The notes under the pieces are model-generated. The model was not told the origin of the DNA, searched no databases, and saw only the letters and a list, made by a program, of their open reading frames with translations. The translations under genes and the position numbers were made by a program. From Rhodocyclales bacterium (lineage in GTDB: Bacteria > Pseudomonadota > Gammaproteobacteria > Burkholderiales > Rhodocyclaceae), in the NCBI GenBank assembly GCA_016235165.1, contig JACRLX010000021.1, positions 124,001-188,000 on the forward strand: a stretch of 64,000 nt of DNA. Direction: 5' to 3'. Below are positions 803-33,086 of this stretch, in pieces; within the stretch, counting starts at the first letter, position 1; each line of letters begins with the position of its first letter.

Positions 803-2986
803 ATGACCTCCCTGCTCGATCACCTCAACCCTCCCCAACTGGCGGCGGTCACCCTTCCCCCTCAGCACGCGCTAATCCTCGCCGGCGCCGGCTCGGGCAA
901 GACGCGGGTACTCACCACGCGCATCGCCTGGCTGATTTCCAGCGGGCAGGTGGCCCCCAGCGGCATCCTCGCGGTAACCTTCACCAACAAGGCTGCGAAG
1001 GAGATGCTGACGCGGCTGGCGGCGATGCTGCCGATCAGCGTCAAGGGCATGTGGATCGGCACCTTCCATGGCCTCTGCAACCGGCTGCTGCGCGCCCACC
1101 ATCGCGACGCCGGACTGCCGCAACTGTTCCAGATCCTCGATTCCGCCGACCAGCAGGCGGCCGTCAAGCGCCTGCTGAAGACGCTTAACGTCGACGACGA
1201 AAAGTACCCGCCGCGCGAACTCTGCCACTTCATCAATGCGCAGAAGGAGCAGGGTCTGCGCCCGGCGGCGGTCGAGGCCTGGGACGACTGGGCGAAGAAG
1301 CGCGTCGAGCTCTACGAGGCCTACGAAGCACAGTGCCAGCGCGAGGGCGTGGTCGATTTCGCCGAGTTGCTGCTGCGCTGTTACGAGCTGCTGGAACGCA
1401 ACGAACCGCTGCGCCGGCATTATCAGGAACGCTTCCGCCATGTATTGGTGGATGAATTTCAAGACACCAACAAGCTGCAATACCGCTGGTTGAAGCTGCT
1501 GGCTGGCGGGGGCGCGGCGATGTTTTGCGTCGGCGACGACGACCAGTCGATCTATGCGTTCAGGGGCGCCGACGTCGGCAACATGCGCGACTTCGAGCGC
1601 GAGTTCAAGGTGACGAACCTGATCCGCCTCGAACAGAACTACCGCTCCCACGGCAACATCCTCGACGCCGCCAATGCCATCATCAGGAACAATCCTTCGC
1701 GCCTGGGCAAGAACCTGTGGACCGAAGCCGGGGCCGGCGAGCCGATCCGGGTGCATGAGTCCTACTCCGACGGCGACGAGGCGCGCTTCATCGTCGAGGA
1801 GGTCAAGGCCCTGTCGCGCGACGGACATGCCCGCGCGGAGATCGCCCTGCTCTACCGCAGCAACGCCCAAAGCCGGGCGCTGGAACACGCGCTGTTCAAT
1901 GCCGGCCTGCCCTACCGAGTGTATGGCGGCCTGCGCTTTTTCGAGCGTGCCGAGATCAAGCACGCACTGGCCTACCTGCGCCTGATCGCCAATGCCAACG
2001 ACGACACTGCCTTCGCCCGTGTGGTGAATTTCCCCACGCGCGGCATTGGCGCACGCAGCCTGGAAAACCTGCAGGACGCCGCCAAGGCCCAGGGCAGCAG
2101 CCTGCATGCCGCGATCCCCCACCTGCCCGGTGCCGGCGGTGCGAAGCTGGCCGCCTTCGCCGAGCTGGTCGTCAGGCTGCGCGAGGCGGCCCACCTGCCG
2201 CTGCCCGAGCTGGTCGAGCACGTGCTCGACCTGTCGGGCCTCGCCGGGCACTACCGCAACGAGAAGGAGGGCCAGGAACGCCTGGCCAACCTCGACGAGT
2301 TGGTGAATGCCGCTGCCAGCTTCGTCGCCGAGGAAGGCACGCCAGGCGCCGAAGGCGAGCTGTCGGCCGACCTCGTCGCCTTCCTCGCCCACGCCTCGCT
2401 GGAAGCCGGCGAGCACCAGGCCGGCGAAGGCGACGACGCCCTGCAACTGATGACCGTGCATTCGGCCAAGGGCCTGGAGTTCAACGTGGTCTTCATCTGC
2501 GGCCTGGAGGAAGGACTGTTCCCCCATGAGAATTCCCTGCTCGAAGACAAGGGCCTGGAAGAGGAAAGGCGCCTGATGTACGTTGCCGTGACGCGTGCGC
2601 GCCAGCGTCTTTACCTCTGCTTTGCCCAAACCCGCATGCTGCACGGCCAGACCCGCTACAACCTGCCTTCGCGTTTCCTCGACGAGATCCCGCAGGAACT
2701 GGTCAAGCACCTGACGCCGCGCGCCGGCCGAAACGGATATGCGGCCTCAGATGCCGCCGCCTTTGCCTACAACGCCACGCCCGACTTTGCCGCCCCACGC
2801 CGCAGCGAATCGTCGAGAGGCGGCGGGTTTCGCATCGGCCAGAGCGTGATGCACCCGAAGTTCGGGCTTGGTGTCATCATCAATGCCGAGGGCGGCGGCT
2901 CCGACGCCCGCGTGCAAGTCAATTTCGGCGCCGCCGGCATCAAATGGCTGGCGCTTTCCGTGGCGAAACTGGAGGTGGTCCGATGA
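803..2986 (+). CDS. uvrD: ATP-dependent DNA helicase UvrD (helicase II)
   Basis: Superfamily 1A 3'-5' DNA helicase of nucleotide excision and mismatch repair. The 727-residue length is normal. The Walker A motif AGAGSGKT is at residues 27-34, the Walker B region VDEFQDTN is near 215-222, the GDDDQSIYAFRGAD motif follows, and LMTVHSAKGLEF is in domain 2A. The C-terminal segment from about residue 679 (HPKFGLG, then KWLALSVAKLE) is the UvrD-type tail and separates it from Rep. Its stop overlaps the start of the next gene by 4 bases (ATGA), so the two are probably co-translated. Confidence 0.95.
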   Translation: MTSLLDHLNPPQLAAVTLPPQHALILAGAGSGKTRVLTTRIAWLISSGQVAPSGILAVTFTNKAAKEMLTRLAAMLPISVKGMWIGTFHGLCNRLLRAHHRDAGLPQLFQILDSADQQAAVKRLLKTLNVDDEKYPPRELCHFINAQKEQGLRPAAVEAWDDWAKKRVELYEAYEAQCQREGVVDFAELLLRCYELLERNEPLRRHYQERFRHVLVDEFQDTNKLQYRWLKLLAGGGAAMFCVGDDDQSIYAFRGADVGNMRDFEREFKVTNLIRLEQNYRSHGNILDAANAIIRNNPSRLGKNLWTEAGAGEPIRVHESYSDGDEARFIVEEVKALSRDGHARAEIALLYRSNAQSRALEHALFNAGLPYRVYGGLRFFERAEIKHALAYLRLIANANDDTAFARVVNFPTRGIGARSLENLQDAAKAQGSSLHAAIPHLPGAGGAKLAAFAELVVRLREAAHLPLPELVEHVLDLSGLAGHYRNEKEGQERLANLDELVNAAASFVAEEGTPGAEGELSADLVAFLAHASLEAGEHQAGEGDDALQLMTVHSAKGLEFNVVFICGLEEGLFPHENSLLEDKGLEEERRLMYVAVTRARQRLYLCFAQTRMLHGQTRYNLPSRFLDEIPQELVKHLTPRAGRNGYAASDAAAFAYNATPDFAAPRRSESSRGGGFRIGQSVMHPKFGLGVIINAEGGGSDARVQVNFGAAGIKWLALSVAKLEVVR

Positions 2987-3765
2987 GCAGCATCGAAACC
3001 AATGGCATACGGGTCAATTACCGCGTCGAGGGCAGCGGCCCCTGGGTCACGCTTTCGCACTCCCTGACCTGCGACCTGAGCATGTGGGATGGCCTCGCCG
3101 CCGCGCTGGCGCCGCACTTCACGGTGCTGCGCTACGACACGCGCGGTCACGGTCACACCAGCGCGCCGGAAGGCCCCTACAGCTTCGAGCAGCTCACCGC
3201 CGACCTGCTCGGCCTGCTCGATGCGCTCAAGGTGGAGCATACCCATTTCGTCGGCTTGTCGATGGGCGGCATGATCGGCCAGCATCTGGCCCTGGCGGCG
3301 CCGCAGCGCCTGGACAAGCTGGTGATCGCCAACTCCACCAGCCGCATTCCGCCGGAAGCCGGTCCGCTGTGGGATGAACGCATCGCCATCGCCCGCAGCC
3401 AGGGTTGTGCCGGGCTGGTCGAAGGCACGCTGGGAAGGTGGTTCACGCCGGCCTTCCGCGCCGCCAATCCGGCGCAAACGGCGCGCATCGGCAAGCTGAT
3501 CGCCGATACGCCGCCGGCCGGCTTCATCGGCTGCGCCGGTGCCATCCGCGCGCTCGACATCAGCGACCGGATCGGCACCATCAAGGCGCCGACACTGGTG
3601 ATCGCGGGCGCAGAGGATCCCGGCACACCGCCAGCAATGAGCGAAACGATCGCCGGAAAAATTGCCGGCGCCCGCTTCGCGGTAATCCCCGCCGCTTCGC
3701 ATCTGTCCTGCATCGAGCAACCGGCCAGCTTCCTCGCCCTGGTCGCCGACTTCCTCAGACCGTAA
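2983..3765 (+). CDS. alpha/beta hydrolase, 3-oxoadipate enol-lactonase-like
   Basis: Alpha/beta-hydrolase fold protein of 260 residues. The nucleophile elbow GLSMGG places Ser93, Asp212 lies in AGAEDPG and His240 in AASHLSC, giving a complete catalytic triad. Overall it resembles PcaD, which hydrolyses 3-oxoadipate enol-lactone in the beta-ketoadipate pathway. No other pca gene is nearby, so the true substrate is open. The ATG at 2983 overlaps the uvrD stop (ATGA), which favours this start over the upstream one at 2944. The 3' end overlaps the convergent HD-GYP gene by 11 bases. Confidence 0.8.
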   Translation: MSSIETNGIRVNYRVEGSGPWVTLSHSLTCDLSMWDGLAAALAPHFTVLRYDTRGHGHTSAPEGPYSFEQLTADLLGLLDALKVEHTHFVGLSMGGMIGQHLALAAPQRLDKLVIANSTSRIPPEAGPLWDERIAIARSQGCAGLVEGTLGRWFTPAFRAANPAQTARIGKLIADTPPAGFIGCAGAIRALDISDRIGTIKAPTLVIAGAEDPGTPPAMSETIAGKIAGARFAVIPAASHLSCIEQPASFLALVADFLRP

Positions 3766-22337: not shown

Positions 22338-24131
22338 ATGAGGCGAATTTCCAGTTTTCTGGGCTCCCTGCTGCTTTGCGCCGCGTTATCGATCCCCGGG
22401 GTCGGTACCGCGGCGCCAGCAAGCGGCGAGACGGCGGGGGTCCCGGTGAAATCGGTGAAATCCGACCGGATCGCGGTGGTGATCGGCAACAGCCGCTACC
22501 CGTCCGGAGCCTTGGCCAACCCGCGCAACGACGCTTCGGCCATGGCCGAGGCGCTGCGCAGGCTCGACTTCGATGTCGAACTGAAACTCGACGCCACCAA
22601 GGCCGACATGGACGCCGTGTTTCGCCGTTTCAGCGCCCGCGCCGACGGCGCCGCGGTGACGGCGATCTTCTATGCCGGCCACGGCATCCAGGTTGGCGGC
22701 GGGAATTACATCGTGCCGATCGACGCCAACCCGCAACACGAGCGCGACCTCAAGCGCGACATGATCAAGATGGACGACATCCTCGAAGACATGGGCGCGG
22801 CACGGGTCAAGCTGGTCTTCTTCGACGCCTGTCGCGACAATCCGCTGGCAAGAAGCTTCAGCCGCGGCGGTTCGCGCGGCATGGCGGCCCCGGTCGAGGC
22901 GACCGGCACGCTGATCTCGTTCGCCACCAAGCACGGCAACACGGCAGCCGACGGCGAGGGCAAGCACAGCCCTTATGCCGCCGCCTTGCTGGCGGCCCTG
23001 GAAAATCCCGCCGGCGTGGAAATCGAACAAATGCTGCGGCGTGTCCAGCAAAGCGTGAAGCAGGCAACCAGCGGCCAGCAGGAGCCCTGGCGCTATGGCT
23101 CGCTGGATGGCGATTTCTACTTTCGGCCTCCGGCGCCGACGGATGCCACGGCGGCGTCGAAAGCCGCCGTTGAACAGGCCGTGCAGGAGGCCACGCGGCG
23201 CGCCGGCGAGCAGGCCGCGCGCGAGAAGGCGGAGTTGCAGCAGTCAATCAAGGCGCTCAGGGAAGCCAGCGAACGCGCCGTCGCCGAAGCCGTCAAGGCG
23301 CAGAAACTGGCCGGTGAAAGCGCCGTGGCCGAGGCCCTCAAACGCAGCAACGAACAGGCGGCGCGCGAGCGCGACGCGATGCAGAAGTCAATGGAAAAAA
23401 TGCTTCAGGACGCCCTCGACAAACAGAAGGCGACGCTGGAAGCCGAGCGCGCAGCGAGTGCCGCCAAGACCGCGCCGATGGCCACCGGCGACGGCAAGGC
23501 TGCACCGCAGGCGATCAGCCTGGCCAGCCTGAGGCCGGCCGAAGCGGCCAGGCCCGCCGCGTCTCCCGTGTCGATGATCGGCGCCGCCGGCGACGAGTGG
23601 GAATATGTCGCGACCGACATCTACGGCAAGCAGCAGAAGCTGGTCGCGCGCGTCAAGGCCATCGTCCCCGGCGCCGGGCTGCTGGAGGAATTCGTCCTCG
23701 GCGGTCGTCCGCTGGCGGAATGGGTGTTCGACAACAAGCCGCACCTGGTCGGCATTCCGCTCGACTCGGTGCTCCTGTTCGCGCCCAACTGGGCTGGCGA
23801 GGATCTCGACAGCGTGGCCATCGTCAATCCCTCGCGCTGCCTGCAGATCCAGTACGTGACCAGCTGCCGGGTATCGAAAATGAAAGTGGTCGGCGAGGAA
23901 AGGATCACCGTGCCGGCCGGCAGCTATGACACCAGGAAGCTGGAAATGACGGTGGTTTTCGGCACGGACTACGGTGACGCCACCCTTGACGCCACGATCT
24001 GGTATTCCAAACAGCACCAGCGCATGGTGCGGCAATCGGTGAAGGGACGGCATCCGGTGGCCGAAGCGCCGGTGAATCAGCTCTACGAAACCATGGAGCT
24101 TGCCGCCTATCGCTCCTGGGCGGCGCGCTGA
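22338..24131 (+). CDS. exported caspase-family protein 1
   Basis: A 597-residue protein with an N-terminal signal peptide (about residues 1-30) and a peptidase C14 p20-like domain at about 42-255. The caspase dyad is present: His in FYAGHGIQ and Cys in FFDACRDNPL. A long charged coiled-coil (about 275-370, many Ala/Glu/Lys) follows, then a C-terminal beta-rich domain beginning near GDEWEYVATD. Bacterial proteins of this kind are often called caspase-like or metacaspase-like; substrates are usually unknown. Its paralogue lies immediately downstream. Confidence 0.8.
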   Translation: MRRISSFLGSLLLCAALSIPGVGTAAPASGETAGVPVKSVKSDRIAVVIGNSRYPSGALANPRNDASAMAEALRRLDFDVELKLDATKADMDAVFRRFSARADGAAVTAIFYAGHGIQVGGGNYIVPIDANPQHERDLKRDMIKMDDILEDMGAARVKLVFFDACRDNPLARSFSRGGSRGMAAPVEATGTLISFATKHGNTAADGEGKHSPYAAALLAALENPAGVEIEQMLRRVQQSVKQATSGQQEPWRYGSLDGDFYFRPPAPTDATAASKAAVEQAVQEATRRAGEQAAREKAELQQSIKALREASERAVAEAVKAQKLAGESAVAEALKRSNEQAARERDAMQKSMEKMLQDALDKQKATLEAERAASAAKTAPMATGDGKAAPQAISLASLRPAEAARPAASPVSMIGAAGDEWEYVATDIYGKQQKLVARVKAIVPGAGLLEEFVLGGRPLAEWVFDNKPHLVGIPLDSVLLFAPNWAGEDLDSVAIVNPSRCLQIQYVTSCRVSKMKVVGEERITVPAGSYDTRKLEMTVVFGTDYGDATLDATIWYSKQHQRMVRQSVKGRHPVAEAPVNQLYETMELAAYRSWAAR

Positions 24132-24332: not shown

Positions 24333-26960
24333 ATGCAGATGAAGCGCTTGAGGTGGTTTTTCTTCTTGTTTTTGGCCGGCGTGCAATGCATCGTCGCCAT
24401 GCCGGCAGGCGGCGCCGAGCCTGCGCGGGCCGCGGCCGCAACGCAGCCCAAGGACCTGCGTGTCGCCGTTGTCATCGGCAACGGCCGCTACCCCTCGGGC
24501 ACGCTCGCCAATCCGCCCAACGACGCGACGGCGATGGCCACGGCACTGAAAAACCTGGGCTTCGATGTCGAACTGAAGCTCGATGCCTCGAAGGCCGACA
24601 TGGACGCGATCTTCAAGCGCCTGAGCGCCAAGGCCGAGCAGGCCGGCGTGGCGGCGCTGTTCTATGCGGGACACGGCATCCAGGTGAACGGCAGCAATTA
24701 CATCGTGCCGATCGACGCCAACCCGAAGAGCGAACGCGACCTGAAGCGCGAAATGGTCAAGATGGACGATGTCATAGACGACATGGATGGCGCCAAGGTC
24801 AAGCTGGTGTTTTTCGATGCCTGTCGCGACAACCCGCTGTCCCGCAGTTTCAACCGCGGCGCTTCGCGCGGCATGGCCGCGCCGGTCGAAGCGACCGGCA
24901 CCCTGATTTCATTCGCGACGAAACACGGCAACACCGCTGCCGACGGCGAAGGCGAGCACAGCCCGTACACCACCGCGCTGCTCGCGGCACTCGAAGACGC
25001 GCGCGGGGTCGAGATCGAGCAAATGCTGCGCAAGGTCCAGCAAGGCGTCAGGCAGGCAACCAAAGGCCAGCAGGAACCCTGGCGCTATGGTTCGCTCGAC
25101 GGCGATTTCTACTTCCAGGCGCCGGCGCCGCAGGCGGACGCCGGCAAACTGCAGCAGGAGGCTGTCGATCGCGCCATCCAGGAGGCGGTGAAGCGCGCCA
25201 GCGAACAGGCTGCGGCCGAAGCTGCTCGCCGTGCGGCCGAACAGCAGGTCAGGGAGCGCGCGACATCCGCCGCCAACGTGGAACTTTCCTACTGGGACAG
25301 CATCAAGGCCGGCCAGAACGCGGATGACTTCCGTGCCTACGTCAAGCGCTATCCGGCGGGATCCTTCGTCGACCTTGCGCAAAACCGCATTGCCGCACTC
25401 GAGCGCGAAGCAAAGCGGCAGGGGGAAGAGGCGCGCACCGCGGCCAAACAGCCGGCGGCTCCCGCAGGAGGCGACCAGACCGCGGTCGAACTGACGTTCT
25501 GGGACAGCATCAAGACCAGCGGCAACGTCGATGACCTGAAGGAATATCTGGCGAACTATCCGCAGGGCCGTTTTGCCGGCCTCGCGCGCAACCGCATCCG
25601 CACGCTGGAGTCCGCGCCCGGCCCGGCGGCTGCCAAGCCGGCCGTCGCGCCGGCTGCGCCTCAGGCCGCTCAGGCCACCGTGCAAATCGCCATGATCGCA
25701 CCGTCGAAACCGGCACCCGCTCCGGCGACGGATTCCGCCTTGCCGCAGGCCGGCGATTCGTGGACCTATCGCTACGTCAACGCCTGGCGCAAGGACAGCC
25801 CTCAAACCGTGGTGGTCAAGGTCGAAGAGTCCGATACCGGCCGCGTGATCGACCGGATGTCCTTGCACGGCGGGCGCGTTGCAAACGAGCGCAGCTTCGA
25901 AGGCAAGCCGGAGGCCGCTGATCGCGCGCTCGGTCGCGATGTTCGCGTTCTCGAACTGCTGCCCTATGCGCAGATCCTGCTGAAGGAAGATCTGAAGGCG
26001 GGACAGGAAAAGACATTTCCCGACCTTGTCCTGGGCATCGAAACCTATCGCGTCAAGGCGAAGATCGTCGGCCAGGAGCAGGTCAGCGTTCCGGCCGGAA
26101 ACTTCGCTGCCTGGCGCGTGGAAATTCTTGGTGAGCGCCTTGGCTCAGCACTCATCCCGGCTCAGGGTGGCGTCGTCGCCTCGATCACCCATACGATCTG
26201 GTTCGTGCCCGAGATCAAGCGCGTAGTCAAGGTCACGCACAAGGGGGGCAATCCGTGGCGTGCCGTCCTCGACAACGACAGTCTCGAACTGATTTCCTAT
26301 ACGCCGTCCGGACAGGCGCCGGCACAACCCACCGCGCCGCCGGCCGGGACCGCAGCGCTGCAAAGTGCCGCGGTGGACGTGGGTTCCGCGCTGCCCAGGG
26401 TCGGCGACTCCTGGACCTATCGTTACATCAACGGCTGGCGCAAGGGCAGCCCGGAAACTGTGCTGGTCAAGGTCGAAGAGTCCGAGGCCGGCCGCGTGAT
26501 CGACCGGATGTCCCTGCGCGGTGAGCGCCTTGCCGACGAGCGCAGCTTCGATGGCAAGCCCGAGGCCGTCGAGCGCGCCCTTGGTCACGATGTCCGCATC
26601 CTCGAACTGCTGCCCTACGCGCAGACCCTGCTGCAGGAAGGCATGAAGCCGGGGCAGGAAAAGAGCCTTGCGGATCTTGCCCTGGGTACCGAAACCTATC
26701 GCGTCAAGGTGAAGTTCGTCGGCCAGGAGAAGATCAGCGTTCCAGCAGGAAGCTTTGATGCCTTGCGGGTGGAGATTGCCGGCCAGAGGCTTGGAGCGCT
26801 CGCGCCCGGGCAGGTGTCGACCGTCAATCTATTCACCCACGTCGTATGGTTTGCGCCCGAAATCAGGAGAGTCGTCAAAGCGACTCACAAGTCGGGCAAC
26901 CCGTGGCGCACGTTTATCGACGATGACAGCCTTGAACTCGTGTCCCACAGCCTGCGTTAA
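24333..26960 (+). CDS. exported caspase-family protein 2, duplicated C-terminal domain
   Basis: Paralogue of the upstream gene, 875 residues: signal peptide (1 to about 30), a caspase domain at about 45-265 with the His in FYAGHGIQ and the Cys in FFDACRDNPL, and two short repeats with the core WDSIK (about 315 and 390) ending in NRI-x-x-LE. Two copies of a roughly 185-residue domain follow, starting GDSWTYRY at about 468 and 690. The C-terminal domains resemble the end of the first protein (GDEWEY). ATGs at 24333 and 24339 are both possible starts. Confidence 0.8.
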   Translation: MQMKRLRWFFFLFLAGVQCIVAMPAGGAEPARAAAATQPKDLRVAVVIGNGRYPSGTLANPPNDATAMATALKNLGFDVELKLDASKADMDAIFKRLSAKAEQAGVAALFYAGHGIQVNGSNYIVPIDANPKSERDLKREMVKMDDVIDDMDGAKVKLVFFDACRDNPLSRSFNRGASRGMAAPVEATGTLISFATKHGNTAADGEGEHSPYTTALLAALEDARGVEIEQMLRKVQQGVRQATKGQQEPWRYGSLDGDFYFQAPAPQADAGKLQQEAVDRAIQEAVKRASEQAAAEAARRAAEQQVRERATSAANVELSYWDSIKAGQNADDFRAYVKRYPAGSFVDLAQNRIAALEREAKRQGEEARTAAKQPAAPAGGDQTAVELTFWDSIKTSGNVDDLKEYLANYPQGRFAGLARNRIRTLESAPGPAAAKPAVAPAAPQAAQATVQIAMIAPSKPAPAPATDSALPQAGDSWTYRYVNAWRKDSPQTVVVKVEESDTGRVIDRMSLHGGRVANERSFEGKPEAADRALGRDVRVLELLPYAQILLKEDLKAGQEKTFPDLVLGIETYRVKAKIVGQEQVSVPAGNFAAWRVEILGERLGSALIPAQGGVVASITHTIWFVPEIKRVVKVTHKGGNPWRAVLDNDSLELISYTPSGQAPAQPTAPPAGTAALQSAAVDVGSALPRVGDSWTYRYINGWRKGSPETVLVKVEESEAGRVIDRMSLRGERLADERSFDGKPEAVERALGHDVRILELLPYAQTLLQEGMKPGQEKSLADLALGTETYRVKVKFVGQEKISVPAGSFDALRVEIAGQRLGALAPGQVSTVNLFTHVVWFAPEIRRVVKATHKSGNPWRTFIDDDSLELVSHSLR
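25741..26951 (+). repeat. tandem duplication of a 185-residue domain-coding unit
   Basis: Copy A is 25741-26305 and copy B is 26396-26951, joined by a Pro/Ala-rich linker. Long stretches are nearly identical in DNA, for example the run encoding VKVEESxxGRVIDRMSL, so the duplication is recent or kept similar by recombination. Confidence 0.8.
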
Positions 26961-27796: not shown

Positions 27797-28015
27797 TTAC
27801 TTCTGTGCGTCGGCGAGATCCTTGTCGCTGACCTTGCCGCTCTGGTGCAGCCACAGCAGGATGGCCAGGGGCTTGGGAATATTGCGGCCGGACTCATAAC
27901 GCGAACCACCGGACTGGGTCACGCCGTAGCGGGTCCAGAAATCCTTCTGGTTCAGGTTGAGCTTCTTGCGCGCAGTAGCGATGTCGGAAAAATCAAGCTT
28001 CTTTTTTCTTGCCAT
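27797..28015 (-). CDS. small helix-turn-helix protein
   Basis: A 72-residue basic protein. ARKKLNLNQKDFWTRYGVTQ and SGGSRYESGR follow the pattern of an XRE/lambda-repressor-like helix-turn-helix, with the second helix at TQSGGSRYE. A 12-residue tail (SGKVSDKDLADAQK) is polar. AAGGAG lies 7 bases before the ATG at 28015, which favours it over the longer frame starting at 28066. A single-gene regulator; its targets are unknown. Confidence 0.75.
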   Translation of the reverse strand: MARKKKLDFSDIATARKKLNLNQKDFWTRYGVTQSGGSRYESGRNIPKPLAILLWLHQSGKVSDKDLADAQK

Positions 28016-28102
28016 GGTTTGCTCCTTTGAGGGGGGGGATGAAACAGTTTGGAAGCATACCGCCATTTATGCCGAATGTGGTAGTCATGCCGCAGGATTT
28101 TT

Positions 28103-28939
28103 TTACATGCCGATAGCCTGCAATGCCTGCGATGCAATCAGGGAGATTTCCTTCAGCCCCGCCGCTTCGGCAATTTCAAGCGCCCTGGCGTAGGCCAGCC
28201 GGGCGTCATTGCCACCCGACGCCTGCCCCGGCGCGTACCGGCGCTGGATATCGCCAATCAGCAGCCAGTCGCGCGCGATTTTTTCCGGCAGGGCCAGGCG
28301 TCGATCGATGTCGAGCGCCGCTTGCGCCGCCGCCAGGGCCGTGGCCTCGCCGCCGGCGAGGCGCGCGGCGGCCAGCAGGCGCCAGGCATTGCCCAGTTCG
28401 CGCGGCTCGTCGCGCTCGCGCAGCAAGGCCAGTCCGCGCTCGGCGTGGGCACGCGCGGCAGGGGCTTCGCCGCGCCGCAGGCTGGCGCGCCCGCGCAGGA
28501 TCTCCAGGCTGGCCCCCGCCGCGCAGTCGGCGCCGCAGCGGCCGGCGGCATGATCGAGAACCTGGCCGGCGTCGGCGGCACGATCCAGGGCCAGCAAGGC
28601 CTGGCCGCGCAGCAGCAGCACATCCAGCTCTTCGGCCAATCCAGGCGGAATACCGTCAAGCATTTCCAGCGCCACGGCGGCACGCCCCTGCGCCAGCTTG
28701 ACGCGAATCAGGTGCAGGCGATTGCGCGCGCTTCCGGCCACGTCGTCGATGCCGGCGAAGCGCCGCATCGCCTCGGCAAAGCGCCGCTCGGCGACCGCCA
28801 GATCGCCGCGCTGGTAACGCTTGGCGCCATCGCTCTCGACTTCCAGCGCGGCCTTCAGCAACGGCGGATCGACCGGCCTTGGCGGCGAGGCGCAGCCGAC
28901 AACGGCGACCAGCAACAGCAAACCCCACTTAGCGCGCAT
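28103..28939 (-). CDS. helical lipoprotein of the MCE operon
   Basis: Last gene of a five-gene overlapping operon, 278 residues. The signal peptide ends in a lipobox (VAVVGCAS; Cys about residue 17), so it is lipidated. The rest is alpha-helical with TPR-like A/L/R periodicity (for example GDLAVAERRFAEAMRRF), unlike the usual PqiC-type auxiliary lipoprotein. Its start overlaps the MCE gene by 11 bases, so coupled translation is likely. It could be the outer-membrane-side partner of the MCE protein, by context only. Confidence 0.7.
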   Translation of the reverse strand: MRAKWGLLLLVAVVGCASPPRPVDPPLLKAALEVESDGAKRYQRGDLAVAERRFAEAMRRFAGIDDVAGSARNRLHLIRVKLAQGRAAVALEMLDGIPPGLAEELDVLLLRGQALLALDRAADAGQVLDHAAGRCGADCAAGASLEILRGRASLRRGEAPAARAHAERGLALLRERDEPRELGNAWRLLAAARLAGGEATALAAAQAALDIDRRLALPEKIARDWLLIGDIQRRYAPGQASGGNDARLAYARALEIAEAAGLKEISLIASQALQAIGM

Positions 28940-29867
28940 GACCGGCCTCCCCGCGCGGATCGCTGTCCGCCTTGAGCGTCGCCGGCCCCGGCGCATCGAC
29001 CAGGTTGCGGATCGGCCAGGCCTGCCTGGCGCCACCGACGATTTCGCGCACATCGGCCGCCACCGCGCTGCCGTCGCGCAACACCGGCGGCACGCTGGTC
29101 TCGGCCTCGGCGGTGATCTTCTCGACATGATCGAGGACCTGGCTGGTCCGCTCGAGCATGGCGGGCAGTCGCTGGTTGGCGGCTTCCAGGGTCTGGCCCA
29201 GATGCTTGAGGTCTTCTTCGGCCTTGTTCAGCACTCTCACCGCCGAGACGCCTATGCCATCGACCTGGCGATTGCCGTTGGCGAGGAGCACGTTGAGTGC
29301 CTCCGAGCTGGCGCGGATCTGTGCCAGCGTGCCCGGCAGGCCTTTCTGCGGATCGGCGAGCGTGCCGGTGATCGCCTTGATGTCCTTGAGGATGGGCACG
29401 AACTCGTCGCGCACCTGATTGGCCAGCGCACCCAGGCCGTCGGCGCGCGTGAAAGCCAGCCGCGCCTGCGCCGCCGCCAGCCGGGTCTTGTCCGGACCGG
29501 GCACGATTTCCAGCGTCGGCGAGCCGACCAGGCCTTCCTTGCGCAGCTCGACACGGGCGTCGTGGGTGACGAAGCGCATGTGATCGGCATCGACCTCGAT
29601 GCCCACGGCCACCGAACCATCGTCGCGCAGGCTGACCTCGGACACCGAGCCGACGCGGAAGCCGGCGATGCGCACGGCCTGGCCCTTGGCGATGTCCTGC
29701 GCGCTGTCGGTGACGAATCCATAGCTCACGGTCTGGCGCAACAGGCCCTGGCGCACAAAAATTGCGGCCACCACGGCCAGCGTCAGCAAGGACGCCAGGA
29801 TCAGGAAGCGGCGCGTGCCGCGACGCACGGCCGCCGTGTCCGCGTCGTATTGGGTCAGCAGGGACAT
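28929..29867 (-). CDS. MCE/MlaD-family substrate-binding protein
   Basis: A 312-residue inner-membrane-anchored periplasmic protein: one membrane helix at about residues 22-43, then an MCE domain (about 48-125; AVRIAGFRVGSVSEV and GSPTLEIVPG), then a long helical tail with heptad-like spacing. MCE proteins form hexameric rings or tunnels that carry phospholipids between membranes. GGAGG precedes the ATG at 29867. The gene overlaps its neighbours on both sides. The 312-residue length fits a single-MCE-domain protein. Confidence 0.88.
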   Translation of the reverse strand: MSLLTQYDADTAAVRRGTRRFLILASLLTLAVVAAIFVRQGLLRQTVSYGFVTDSAQDIAKGQAVRIAGFRVGSVSEVSLRDDGSVAVGIEVDADHMRFVTHDARVELRKEGLVGSPTLEIVPGPDKTRLAAAQARLAFTRADGLGALANQVRDEFVPILKDIKAITGTLADPQKGLPGTLAQIRASSEALNVLLANGNRQVDGIGVSAVRVLNKAEEDLKHLGQTLEAANQRLPAMLERTSQVLDHVEKITAEAETSVPPVLRDGSAVAADVREIVGGARQAWPIRNLVDAPGPATLKADSDPRGEAGHAR

Positions 29868-30469
29868 GCATCCTCCGCGAAATGGGTCAGGCTGCGACAC
29901 TGCGGCAATTCCGGCAACTCGTGGCTGTCGAGGTCGACGAACAGTGCGCTGCGAAACGGGTGGCGCCGATGATATGCCGCCTGCACCGCGATCAGGGCTT
30001 CGGCCTCGCGCCGCGTCAGGCCGGCAAACAGACGGTCGATCACCAGCAACTCGGGCGGACGAAGCATCCAGCGCGCCAGCCCGATGGCCCAGCGCTCCAG
30101 GCGCGGCAGGCGCATCGGCTGCTCGCTGCCCAGCACCTGGATGCGCTGCGGCGACAGGCCGCACAGCTGCAGCGCGATTTCCATTTCACGCTCGTCGTCC
30201 CGCGCGTCAACCACATCCTGACCGTAGCGCAGGGCCAGGGCAAGGCTTTCGGCCACCGTCATGGCACCCGGCAGGCTGCCGGTGGCGGTCAGGATGCCGA
30301 CGCCGGCACAGGCCTCAAGGGCGGCCACCACACGCTTTGCGGAAGCGACGTCCGCCACCACCAGGCGATGGTGCCCGCCCTGGTCGAGCGGCAAGGCCAG
30401 GCAAGCGCCATGGCCAGGACGCAGCAGCAGATGACGCCCTTCCATGGTCGCGGTCGGCATCATGACCAT
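29855..30469 (-). CDS. degenerate MlaF-like ABC ATPase homologue
   Basis: Where an MCE operon should encode the ABC ATPase, this 204-residue protein keeps the overall MlaF layout but loses its motifs. In place of the Walker A loop it reads VADVASAKRV (only the Lys remains). LSGG is replaced by MRLPRLER, the Walker B Glu is lost in LLVIDRLFAGL, and the switch His is lost in FVDLDSHELPE. The conserved frame SLPGAMTVAESLALALRY still matches the ABC Q-loop region. ATP hydrolysis is not expected. Start 30469 or 30463 (ATGA overlap with the permease stop). Confidence 0.75.
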   Translation of the reverse strand: MVMMPTATMEGRHLLLRPGHGACLALPLDQGGHHRLVVADVASAKRVVAALEACAGVGILTATGSLPGAMTVAESLALALRYGQDVVDARDDEREMEIALQLCGLSPQRIQVLGSEQPMRLPRLERWAIGLARWMLRPPELLVIDRLFAGLTRREAEALIAVQAAYHRRHPFRSALFVDLDSHELPELPQCRSLTHFAEDACPC

Positions 30470-31215
30470 GCCATCGCCCAGACCAACGCCGCAAAGGCCA
30501 CGTCGATGACGAACACCGCAACCAGGCCGGCGCCGACGGACTTGATCGCGGCATCGGAAATGGCCTGCGCCGAGGCTTCGCCGGTGCTGCCCTGATGACA
30601 GGCAATGATGCCGATCACGGCGCCGGTGAGCGCGCCCTTGACCAGGCTCAGCATGGCCAGCCACGGGTTGGCCAGATCGAGGAAGCGTCCGGCGGTATCG
30701 ACCAGAGGGCGGCCGTCGATCAAGGCGGTCGCCGCCCAGCCGCTGGCGAGCGCGGCGGCCTGGAAGCAGACGGTCACCGCCGGCAGGGCAATCGCCAGGC
30801 CGAAGACCCGCGGCAGCAGAAGGAAATCGGCCGGCGGTACGCCCAGCCGGCGCAGCGCGGTGAATTCGTCATGCAGATTCATCACCGCCAGTTCCGAGGC
30901 GATGCCGGCGCTGCTGCGTGCCACCACCACCAGTGCCGAGAGCAGGGGCGCCAGCTCGAAAAACAGGCCGAGAAACACCAGGCGCTGGGTGAGATCGGCA
31001 TCGGCGCCGATCAGCGCGGCAAGCTGGGTGCTCACGGCGGCGCCGGTCAGCACCGCCAGCACCATGACGATGGGCAGCGCGGCGACGCCGGCGACATGGA
31101 TCTGGCGCTGCAACTGGGCGCGCAACAAGGGCCGCCGCAGTTCGCGATGGCGCGCGGTGGCAAGCCGCAGCAAGGCCAGGTAGGCATCGAATGCCGACCG
31201 CGCCGCGGTGTTCAT
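30460..31215 (-). CDS. MlaE-family permease
   Basis: A 251-residue integral membrane protein with about five transmembrane segments and the MlaE signature (SALVVVARSSAGIASELAVM, then a coupling-helix region ALRRLGV). MlaE permeases are the membrane core of MCE lipid transporters. AGGAG lies 8 bases before the ATG at 31215. That ATG overlaps the stop of the cyclase gene by 4 bases. A longer frame to 31260 exists but lies inside the cyclase gene. Confidence 0.85.
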   Translation of the reverse strand: MNTAARSAFDAYLALLRLATARHRELRRPLLRAQLQRQIHVAGVAALPIVMVLAVLTGAAVSTQLAALIGADADLTQRLVFLGLFFELAPLLSALVVVARSSAGIASELAVMNLHDEFTALRRLGVPPADFLLLPRVFGLAIALPAVTVCFQAAALASGWAATALIDGRPLVDTAGRFLDLANPWLAMLSLVKGALTGAVIGIIACHQGSTGEASAQAISDAAIKSVGAGLVAVFVIDVAFAALVWAMAWS

Positions 31216-32987
31216 GCGCCCGCTCCTGGAACGACTTGCGCCGGCGGCGTCCAGCCCCATGCGCGCGGCGTGGCGGCATCCGCCCGCCGCAGTTCCACCA
31301 GACCGCCGCCAAAGCCCACCGCCGCCGCCACGGCTTCCGAGCAGAGCACCGGATGCCCGCCATCCTTGGTCAGGCCTTCCAGGCGCGCGGCAATGCCTAC
31401 GGCATCGCCGATGACGGAAAACTCGCGCCGCCGTTCGGACCCGACATAGCCGGCCAGCACCTCGCCGCTATGAATGCCGATCCCGATCCGCACCGGCTCG
31501 CCGCCCTCGGCCGCCAGTTCGCGGTTCAGGCGCTCGACGCGCAGCAGCAGGTCCTGTGCTGCCTCCAGGGCATTGCGCTGTGGCGCGTCGAGCGGCTGCG
31601 GCAGGCCAAAGGTCGCCGTCAGTCCGTCGCCGACGTACTTGTCCACCGCGCCACCGCTGTTCTGTATCGCCAGGGCGGCGGCCTGGTGGAAGCGGTTCAA
31701 CAGCCCGATCATGGCCTGCGGCGTCGAACTCCCGGCACGCGCGGCGAACCCGCGCATTCCCACCACCATCAGCGTGACCGCCTGCCGCGTGCCGCTTTCC
31801 TCGAGTTGCAATTCGCCACCGATCAGCGCGCGCATCACCTGCGGGCTGACATGGCCGGCGAACATCCCGAGCAGCATCCGGCGCTCGCGGAAATGCCTGA
31901 TGAATTCCCAGGCCAGGCGCGCGAGGTAGGCAAGCAGGCTGACCAGCACGATGTTCGCCACGCGCAGATAGTCGCCCTGCCACAAGGCATAGGTGGATAG
32001 GCCGAACAGCGCGCCCAGGGCCGCCGCCAGCAGCAGGCCCTTGGCCCAGCCGCCGCGACCGAACCAGAACAGGGTGCCGATCGCGGCGAGCAGCAGCGAA
32101 AGCTTCTCCGGGGCGCGCTCGATCAGACCGCGCGAGAGCAGGGAACGCAGGGCCTGGATATGCACCACGGCAGCCGGCTCGGTGCGGCTGCCCGGAGCCC
32201 ATCCGGCCAGCGGTACCGGCAATCGGTGGCGGGTTTCGGTCGGTAGCAGGCTGGCGACCACCACGGCACGGCCTTTGACCAATGCATGCAGATTGTCGTT
32301 CTCGCCGCGATGTATCCAGCCCAGCACGGTGAGGAGCGGGGTGTATTCGACGCTGCCGCCGACGCTGTAATCGATCATGCCGGAGGGCGAACCCTGGCGC
32401 CCAAGGCGCTTGGCCATCGCCAGCGCCAGCGGATCGCGCTTGTCATCGGACTGGCAGCGGCGCTGGTTGATCCGCCGCACCACGCCGTCGGTGTCCTCGC
32501 AGATCGCCAGCGACGCCAGTTCCTTTTCGCCGATCACGGCCAGCAGTTCCGGCGCGATCGGGCGCAGGCGGCTGCCGATCCCCGGCGGCTGGCCCACCAC
32601 CAGCGGCGCGGCGCTCTTGAGCCGGGCGATGCCAGAAATCAGGCTGGCGTCGATGTCCTTCACCAGGAAGTCATAGGAGCGCACCGGCAAGGGCATGGCG
32701 ACACCCACCACCGCCGGCTCGGCCGCCGAAAGCCCGGCGAACAGCAGGCCGAGATGCGAATGCCACAGCGCGGCCGGCTCGGGGATCGCCACGTAGGCGG
32801 CCTCGTCGATGCCGATGACGACAACATCCTGCGCCAGCGGCGTCGGGAAATGCGCGCGTAACCAGGATATCTGCGCATCGTAGAAAGCCTGGTCGGCGAA
32901 GCGCAAGGCTCGCGTCCCCATCAGGGTCCAGCTGGCGGCACACACCAGCAGGAAGCCAATCACGATGTCGCGGGGAATGCGGGTCAT
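31212..32987 (-). CDS. CHASE2 sensor with degenerate class III adenylate cyclase domain
   Basis: First gene of the MCE operon, 591 residues. A membrane helix (about 7-25), a CHASE2-type periplasmic sensor (DQAFYDAQISWL, VVIGIDEAAY), then about three membrane helices (340-410) and a class III cyclase domain (about 430-575). In the cyclase the first metal Asp is Gly (VVGMRGF, normally FADIRGF) and the catalytic Asn is Gly (GDAVGIAARLE, normally VNLAARLE). Lys and the second Asp (DKYVGDG) remain. It probably cannot make cAMP and may sense ligand. Start at 32987. Confidence 0.85.
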   Translation of the reverse strand: MTRIPRDIVIGFLLVCAASWTLMGTRALRFADQAFYDAQISWLRAHFPTPLAQDVVVIGIDEAAYVAIPEPAALWHSHLGLLFAGLSAAEPAVVGVAMPLPVRSYDFLVKDIDASLISGIARLKSAAPLVVGQPPGIGSRLRPIAPELLAVIGEKELASLAICEDTDGVVRRINQRRCQSDDKRDPLALAMAKRLGRQGSPSGMIDYSVGGSVEYTPLLTVLGWIHRGENDNLHALVKGRAVVVASLLPTETRHRLPVPLAGWAPGSRTEPAAVVHIQALRSLLSRGLIERAPEKLSLLLAAIGTLFWFGRGGWAKGLLLAAALGALFGLSTYALWQGDYLRVANIVLVSLLAYLARLAWEFIRHFRERRMLLGMFAGHVSPQVMRALIGGELQLEESGTRQAVTLMVVGMRGFAARAGSSTPQAMIGLLNRFHQAAALAIQNSGGAVDKYVGDGLTATFGLPQPLDAPQRNALEAAQDLLLRVERLNRELAAEGGEPVRIGIGIHSGEVLAGYVGSERRREFSVIGDAVGIAARLEGLTKDGGHPVLCSEAVAAAVGFGGGLVELRRADAATPRAWGWTPPAQVVPGAGA

Positions 32988-33057: not shown

Positions 33058-33086
33058 AAAAAACGGGCGCCGCGTGGGCGCCCGTT
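33058..33086 (-). terminator. rho-independent terminator after amtB
   Basis: On the minus strand a perfect 9-base stem ACGGGCGCC/GGCGCCCGT with a 5-base loop is followed by a run of six T. It lies about 65 bases beyond the amtB stop and ends the torF-glnK-amtB transcript before the MCE operon. Confidence 0.85.

Follow-up and report, generated by a model that had tools for sequence, protein, structure and literature searches.

A five-gene MlaE operon of a Rhodocyclales bacterium whose ABC ATPase-like and cyclase-like proteins lack catalytic residues

To our knowledge, it is an open question by what means, and in which direction, lipid is moved by the ATPase-free MCE systems Pqi and Let. Among the MCE systems described so far, Mpc of Brucella (mpcEFDA) was reported to form a stable complex of its E, F, D and A subunits (PMC12436622), the ATPase MceG was found to be common to Mce1 and Mce4 (PMC9947336), and the MlaF variants K47A and E170Q were shown to fail in complementation in E. 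coli (PMC7367683). The locus compared with these systems lies in a stretch of 64,000 nucleotides from a Rhodocyclales bacterium (contig JACRLX010000021.1, positions 124,001 to 188,000), referred to as the window. Five minus-strand open reading frames (ORFs) within positions 28103–32987 encode, in this order, a CHASE2-cyclase, an MlaE permease, an MlaF-like nucleotide-binding domain (NBD), an MCE protein and a lipoprotein. The NBD and the cyclase have lost catalytic residues yet remain under selection, and the operon therefore probably works without burning ATP.

The third protein (29855..30463, minus strand, 202 aa), here called pseudo-MlaF, gave no domain match in a Pfam scan but was modelled with the fold of an ABC transporter NBD, with MlaF as the best VIA-align match. 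It is dead by motif, as had been claimed in an earlier sequence-only reading of this DNA: Walker A, the catalytic Glu of Walker B, the LSGGQ signature and the H-switch are absent, and it should neither bind nor hydrolyse ATP. NBDs were scored by the generally known motif definitions, and Walker A by the pattern G-x4-GK[ST], which an unusual P-loop could escape. The model aligns to MlaF residues 5–222 only, the C-terminal extension being absent. Pseudo-MlaF does retain the segment that follows the Q-loop, the part that in ABC transporters is turned towards the coupling helix of the permease. A wrong start masking a P-loop was rejected, as the in-frame extension holds no P-loop and the model meets MlaF from near the first strand.

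The permease (30460..31215, minus strand, 251 aa) matches solved MlaE chains and Pfam MlaE (PF02405, 134 bits) at residues 37–243, and no second domain, STAS included, was found in it. In the MCE protein (28929..29867, minus strand, 312 aa), a single MlaD/MCE domain (PF02470, 52 bits) at residues 47–124 is followed by about 190 residues. The protein matches the Mce1 chain 8fed_B over residues 17–268 (E 2e-6), and by analogy its C-terminal part might form a helical needle. The last gene (28103..28939, minus strand, 278 aa) codes for a lipoprotein with the lipobox VVGC and Ala at +2, Cys16 being invariant in 26 aligned sequences, and its predicted destination is the outer membrane. Pfam gave TPR matches below the cut-off only, but the AlphaFold2 model (mean predicted local distance difference test score 91) is an all-helical superhelix of 13 helices for which Foldseek returned TPR proteins, in agreement with the TPR-type lipoprotein proposed before.

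The first gene (31212..32987, minus strand) encodes a 591 aa membrane protein with a CHASE2 (PF05226, 52 bits) and a class III cyclase-like domain (PF00211, Guanylate_cyc, 57 bits). In alignments to solved adenylate cyclases and relatives, Gly410 stands at what we take to be the first metal Asp site and Gly531 at the presumed transition-state Asn site, whereas Asp454 and Arg535 are kept, so that the set of two metal Asp and transition-state Asn/Arg expected of a class III nucleotide cyclase is incomplete. The designation as pseudo-cyclase, made earlier from the letters alone, is thus borne out. Among relatives, whose loci carry L-numbers, the first Asp is replaced by Gly and the Asn by Gly or Ala in 19 of the 19 loci of the window's clade that show both sites (window included); in L080 the second site alone is visible and is also Gly. 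Both residues are intact in L090–L095, L132 and L134. Distant cyclases differ, with Asn changed to Ser in L098, both sites altered in the first copy of L102, both residues kept in L101, and L158 and the second copy of L102 intact. Cyclic-nucleotide output from the CHASE2 protein is, on these residues, unlikely in the window's clade; it might possibly gate a putative conduit by direct contact, and the signal gating suggested by the sequence-only reading stays a hypothesis. In L101, the CHASE2-cyclase gene is directly preceded by a gene (2315–3214) whose product, of unknown family, appears to carry a signal peptide.

Neighbouring genes overlap throughout, as the sequence-only reading had stated (by 4 to 13 bases). 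The cyclase gene and mlaE share 4 nt (31212–31215), mlaE and the NBD gene 4 nt with the start at 30463 (1–10 nt with alternative in-frame ATGs), the NBD and MCE genes 13 nt, and the MCE and lipoprotein genes 11 nt. In 30 loci of relatives the same lengths were found in 21 of 25 scored (cyclase/mlaE, 4 nt), 18 of 30 (mlaE/NBD, 4 nt), 24 of 29 scored (NBD/MCE, 13 nt) and 16 of 25 scored (MCE/lipoprotein, 11 nt). This recurrence is beyond chance, and chance ORFs were rejected since gene order and overlaps are conserved.

When 150 relatives were searched with the pseudo-NBD, 65 genomes gave a match at E<=0.001. Matches of at least 86 bits were found in the window's own genome (G000) and in 28 others, namely 25 of 30 genomes of the same genus and three other genomes of the same family. 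The remaining 36 matches were weak (at most 48 bits); one of these, G113, counts as a true member because of its neighbours, and the others (partly checked) are probably other ABC ATPases. The MCE protein was matched in 51 of the 150 relatives. Of 27 loci (L070–L096), 19 (some cut at an end) show the window's order of five genes without insert, four carry an insert of CHASE2-only and caspase genes, and four miss a gene through contig ends. The Walker A pattern was found in none of the 35 NBDs of the module in near relatives, and it is likewise missing from the window's NBD. Ratios of nonsynonymous to synonymous substitution rates (dN/dS, NG86) between the window and L070 were 0.10 for the cyclase, 0.15 for mlaE, 0.18 for the NBD, 0.09 for the MCE gene and 0.24 for the lipoprotein; against L071–L075 they ranged from 0.13 to 0.49, again highest for the lipoprotein. 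The sequence-only reading had been staked on a conserved gene order and on selection still acting: the order is kept in relatives, with a strong NBD orthologue in the 25 same-genus genomes, and no relaxed selection was seen, all five genes being under purifying selection with dN/dS at most 0.49 in the tested pairs.

Not recognised by that reading were the recurrence of dead NBDs in a wider family and the CHASE2-only and caspase genes in related operons. A search with an MCE profile (E<=1e-20) recovered 11 genomes among 369 of the class, counting G000, and 42 among 398 of the phylum, counting G000 and G113. The DNA around the match was inspected in all 10 other class genomes and in 35 of the 42 phylum genomes, again with G000 and G113 counted. 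In each inspected family locus an NBD-like gene adjoins the MCE gene, MlaE is present unless cut, and a lipoprotein-like gene is mostly found. Walker A was detected by pattern in 4 of 10 loci of the class set and in 5 of 33 phylum loci (own and G113 excluded). In distant members, all seven lipoprotein-position genes scanned gave TPR matches, four of them above the Pfam cut-off. As a control, an intact NBD was found within 1.5 kb in 26 of the 30 best-scoring MlaE loci (38 class genomes), a choice that favours canonical loci; of the four failures, one has a Walker A near the flank edge and the remaining three lack any NBD motif in that range.

A tree was built from 49 rows of MlaE and MCE, leaving the NBD out, with rows selected from the loci at hand. 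Walker A is missing from 37 of the 49 rows and at least five changes of its state are required. A single clade of dead NBDs was rejected, as constraining the 37 rows together gave a p-AU of 4e-59 in the approximately unbiased (AU) test. Changes on a tree cannot separate loss from gain; the direction was probably loss. Three of the nine non-canonical rows with Walker A (L150, L158 and L192) also keep the Walker B DE and the His switch, and NBD degradation is therefore graded. LSGGQ is kept in none of these nine rows, and by motif the members counted as Walker-A-positive may also be impaired. L098, from another family, carries the operon's five genes in a permuted arrangement. In one distant family (L189–L191), the Walker-A-less module lies near a canonical mlaF-mlaE-mlaD set, and in L191, the one scanned of the three, mlaC and a YhdP gene are also near; this company fits a role in lipid transport.

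CHASE2-only and caspase genes are inserted between mlaE and the NBD gene in L090, L091, L093, L094, L132, L133, L134, L135 and L097/L136, the last two being one contig fetched twice. The caspase combines Peptidase_C14 with DUF4384 where scanned (L097). L133 and L135 have no cyclase ahead of mlaE, and only 0.3 kb of contig precedes mlaE in L136; cassette-bearing relatives with a visible cyclase retain both catalytic residues. Among 101 genomes, CHASE2-only matches of at least 80% identity occur in four of the same genus, the same four that hold the caspase, and weaker ones (34–48%) in 13 others, while neither gene has a match at E<=1e-40 in G000 or in G009. In L092 of G009, 106 nt separate mlaE from the NBD gene; their start resembles that of the CHASE2-only gene and their end the last codons of the caspase, an apparent deletion scar of the cassette judged from short alignments. 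It is suggestive, from one event on the tree, that the cassette was lost first and the cyclase residues later.

The CHASE2-only protein (L090, L091, L093, L094, L132–L136) has a C-terminal region of about 160 aa. Pfam gave CHASE2 alone in the two proteins scanned (L097 and L132), and a cyclase-like C-terminal domain was rejected, since no likeness to the cyclase domain emerged when the two were compared. In L135 (10879–11745, over the cut-off) and L133 (10201–10785, under it), the gene next after that of the lipoprotein is DUF4384-like.

Taken together, an Mpc-like, ATP-independent lipid conduit across the envelope, in which the pseudo-NBD is a clamp and the CHASE2 protein has the part of a sensor or scaffold, is favoured as slightly above an even chance. 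We infer a core of mlaE, pseudo-mlaF, the MCE gene and the TPR lipoprotein, in which MlaE would occupy the inner membrane, the MCE protein would form a hexameric ring whose helical needle crosses the periplasm, and the lipoprotein in the outer membrane would be the far anchor. Pseudo-MlaF, folded as an NBD, would act as a structural clamp rather than as a motor, and lipid would flow passively or be driven by gradients, a mode that Pqi and Let, which have no ATPase, may share. The CHASE2 protein would read the periplasm. In the ancestors, the cyclase was probably active beside the CHASE2-only protein and a secreted caspase; with the cassette gone in the window's clade, it would have lost its catalytic residues and been kept as a contact-acting sensor or scaffold. 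It appears evenly balanced whether the wider statement holds, that a family of MCE conduits repeatedly made its ATPase a pseudo-enzyme and so became ATP-free bridges, that it was wired to CHASE2 cyclase and caspase in Betaproteobacteria, and that the window's clade made the cyclase a pseudo-enzyme too once the caspase pair was gone, leaving both catalytic domains structural.

Several observations weigh against this picture. Foldseek ranks LolD first by E-value and lists MlaF chains no higher than ranks 10 and 16, and the sequence profile of pseudo-MlaF finds OpuCA and LptB first, so that VIA-align and gene position are the grounds for placing it with MlaF. Long branches make parts of the tree uncertain. 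A CHASE2-cyclase was seen in one of 23 distant loci fetched wide (L158) and is thus outside the core. In L092 and L095 both cyclase residues are kept although the cassette is absent, and the association of cassette loss with cyclase loss is a single event on the tree. Finally, an ATPase could come from either of two further MlaE loci of G000 whose NBDs are intact, a canonical one (NBD and short MCE gene) and another whose MlaE ORF spans about 400 aa.

An intact MlaF from one of these loci might indeed dock on the operon's MlaE, alone or beside the pseudo-NBD, and render transport ATP-driven. The genes concerned have the Walker A sequences GSSGCGKT and GGSGSGKT, and sharing is known from MceG, which serves both Mce1 and Mce4 (PMC9947336). 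Such a borrowed motor is nevertheless unlikely, as the operon retains an NBD-like subunit in the usual gene position under purifying selection, this subunit has neither the signature motif nor the C-terminal extension beyond MlaF residues 5–222, and the Walker A state changed in several lineages. It was also considered that MlaE, MCE protein and lipoprotein do not transport but read the lipid or envelope state and signal it to the CHASE2 protein by way of the pseudo-NBD, the output of the seven-gene form being a cyclic nucleotide and a caspase response. The frequent 4-nt overlap of cyclase gene and mlaE, the seven-gene form itself and the permuted five genes of L098 would agree with an envelope sensor, which is rated as rather improbable given the rarity of the CHASE2-cyclase in distant loci and the missing catalytic residues of the window's cyclase; moreover, G000 has no close CHASE2-only or caspase copy, though two other caspase-domain genes lie nearby. 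That the operon is a broken Mla-type system on its way to being lost could be read from two enzyme domains without catalytic residues and from the scar-like junction in L092. The low dN/dS of all five genes largely refutes decay, frames stay open and overlaps are conserved, and the Walker-A-less NBD is common to other genera and families, which makes this explanation very improbable.

Upstream, a terminator-like hairpin (33062..33086, minus strand; hairpin scan and fold z) lies between amtB and the operon. Such hairpins are only mildly enriched at the locus (5 found against 2.9 expected; fold z -2.0), and no sigma-70-like promoter was found by a consensus scan. A small RsaL-like helix-turn-helix protein (27797–28066, minus strand) begins 36 nt past the lipoprotein gene, and 16 of the 27 loci L070–L096 have a homologue downstream, with several others cut by contig ends. 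Two tandem caspase-domain genes (22338–24131 and 24333–26960, plus strand) are convergent with the operon; both have PADLOC caspase matches. Pfam gave Peptidase_C14 and DUF3108 for the second, and a relative of its N-terminal part is encoded downstream in L073, L074, L077, L091, L093 and L094, on the strand opposite. A role in anti-phage defence was considered and set aside; PADLOC matched the cyclase domain (as Pycsar cyclase) and the caspases, and none of the four core proteins.

Related MlaE-type bridges with intact, partly degraded and dead NBDs offer a natural experiment on the role of ATP in MCE transport, and the seven-gene form physically joins CHASE2 sensing and a bacterial caspase to genes of lipid transport. 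A literature search, with subscription papers and preprints outside its scope, came across no account of an MlaE family whose NBD is dead, and no paper was returned by a full-text search of the same scope for the pair CHASE2 and MlaE. From the cyclase side, a cyanobacterial protein with caspase-like and CHASE2 domains (PMC3501461) and a CHASE2 cyclase gene after mtxA in magnetotactic bacteria (PMC4439547) have been described. The window protein shares the CHASE2 and cyclase domains with CHASE2 class III cyclases and differs from them in having Gly in place of the first metal Asp and of the transition-state Asn.

As the sequence-only reading had held, the arrangement is not that of mlaFEDCB or pqiABC, and a CHASE2 protein does stand first in the unit. 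With Mla (MlaFEDB with MlaC and MlaA) the operon shares the MlaE permease, an MCE protein and an NBD fold nearest to MlaF by VIA-align; the catalytic motifs and C-terminal extension of MlaF are absent, MlaB and MlaC were not found by Pfam among the operon and neighbour genes scanned, and in place of MlaB, MlaC and MlaA the operon has a longer MCE protein and a lipoprotein. PqiABC and LetAB likewise have an MCE conduit without an ATPase, and PqiC is an outer-membrane lipoprotein, but they use PqiA or LetA with three and seven MCE domains (PMC12436622), whereas the window has MlaE and one MCE domain. In Mce1/YrbE with MceG, the MCE domain with a long C-terminal part (8fed_B) and YrbE1A, which matches the window's MlaE, are alike, while Mce1 is a heterohexamer with a shared, active ATPase. 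Mpc has the same order of permease, NBD, MCE protein and, last, lipoprotein, one MCE domain with a needle, and a four-gene operon without mlaC or a separate mlaB (PMC12436622). It differs, as described in the same source, in an ABC transporter termed well conserved, with MpcF homologous to MlaF, in the N-terminal STAS domain of MpcE and in the PqiC-like MpcA; the window's operon has instead a pseudo-NBD without the motifs of a competent ATPase, a permease in which no STAS domain was found, a TPR-like lipoprotein and, in addition, the CHASE2 pseudo-cyclase.

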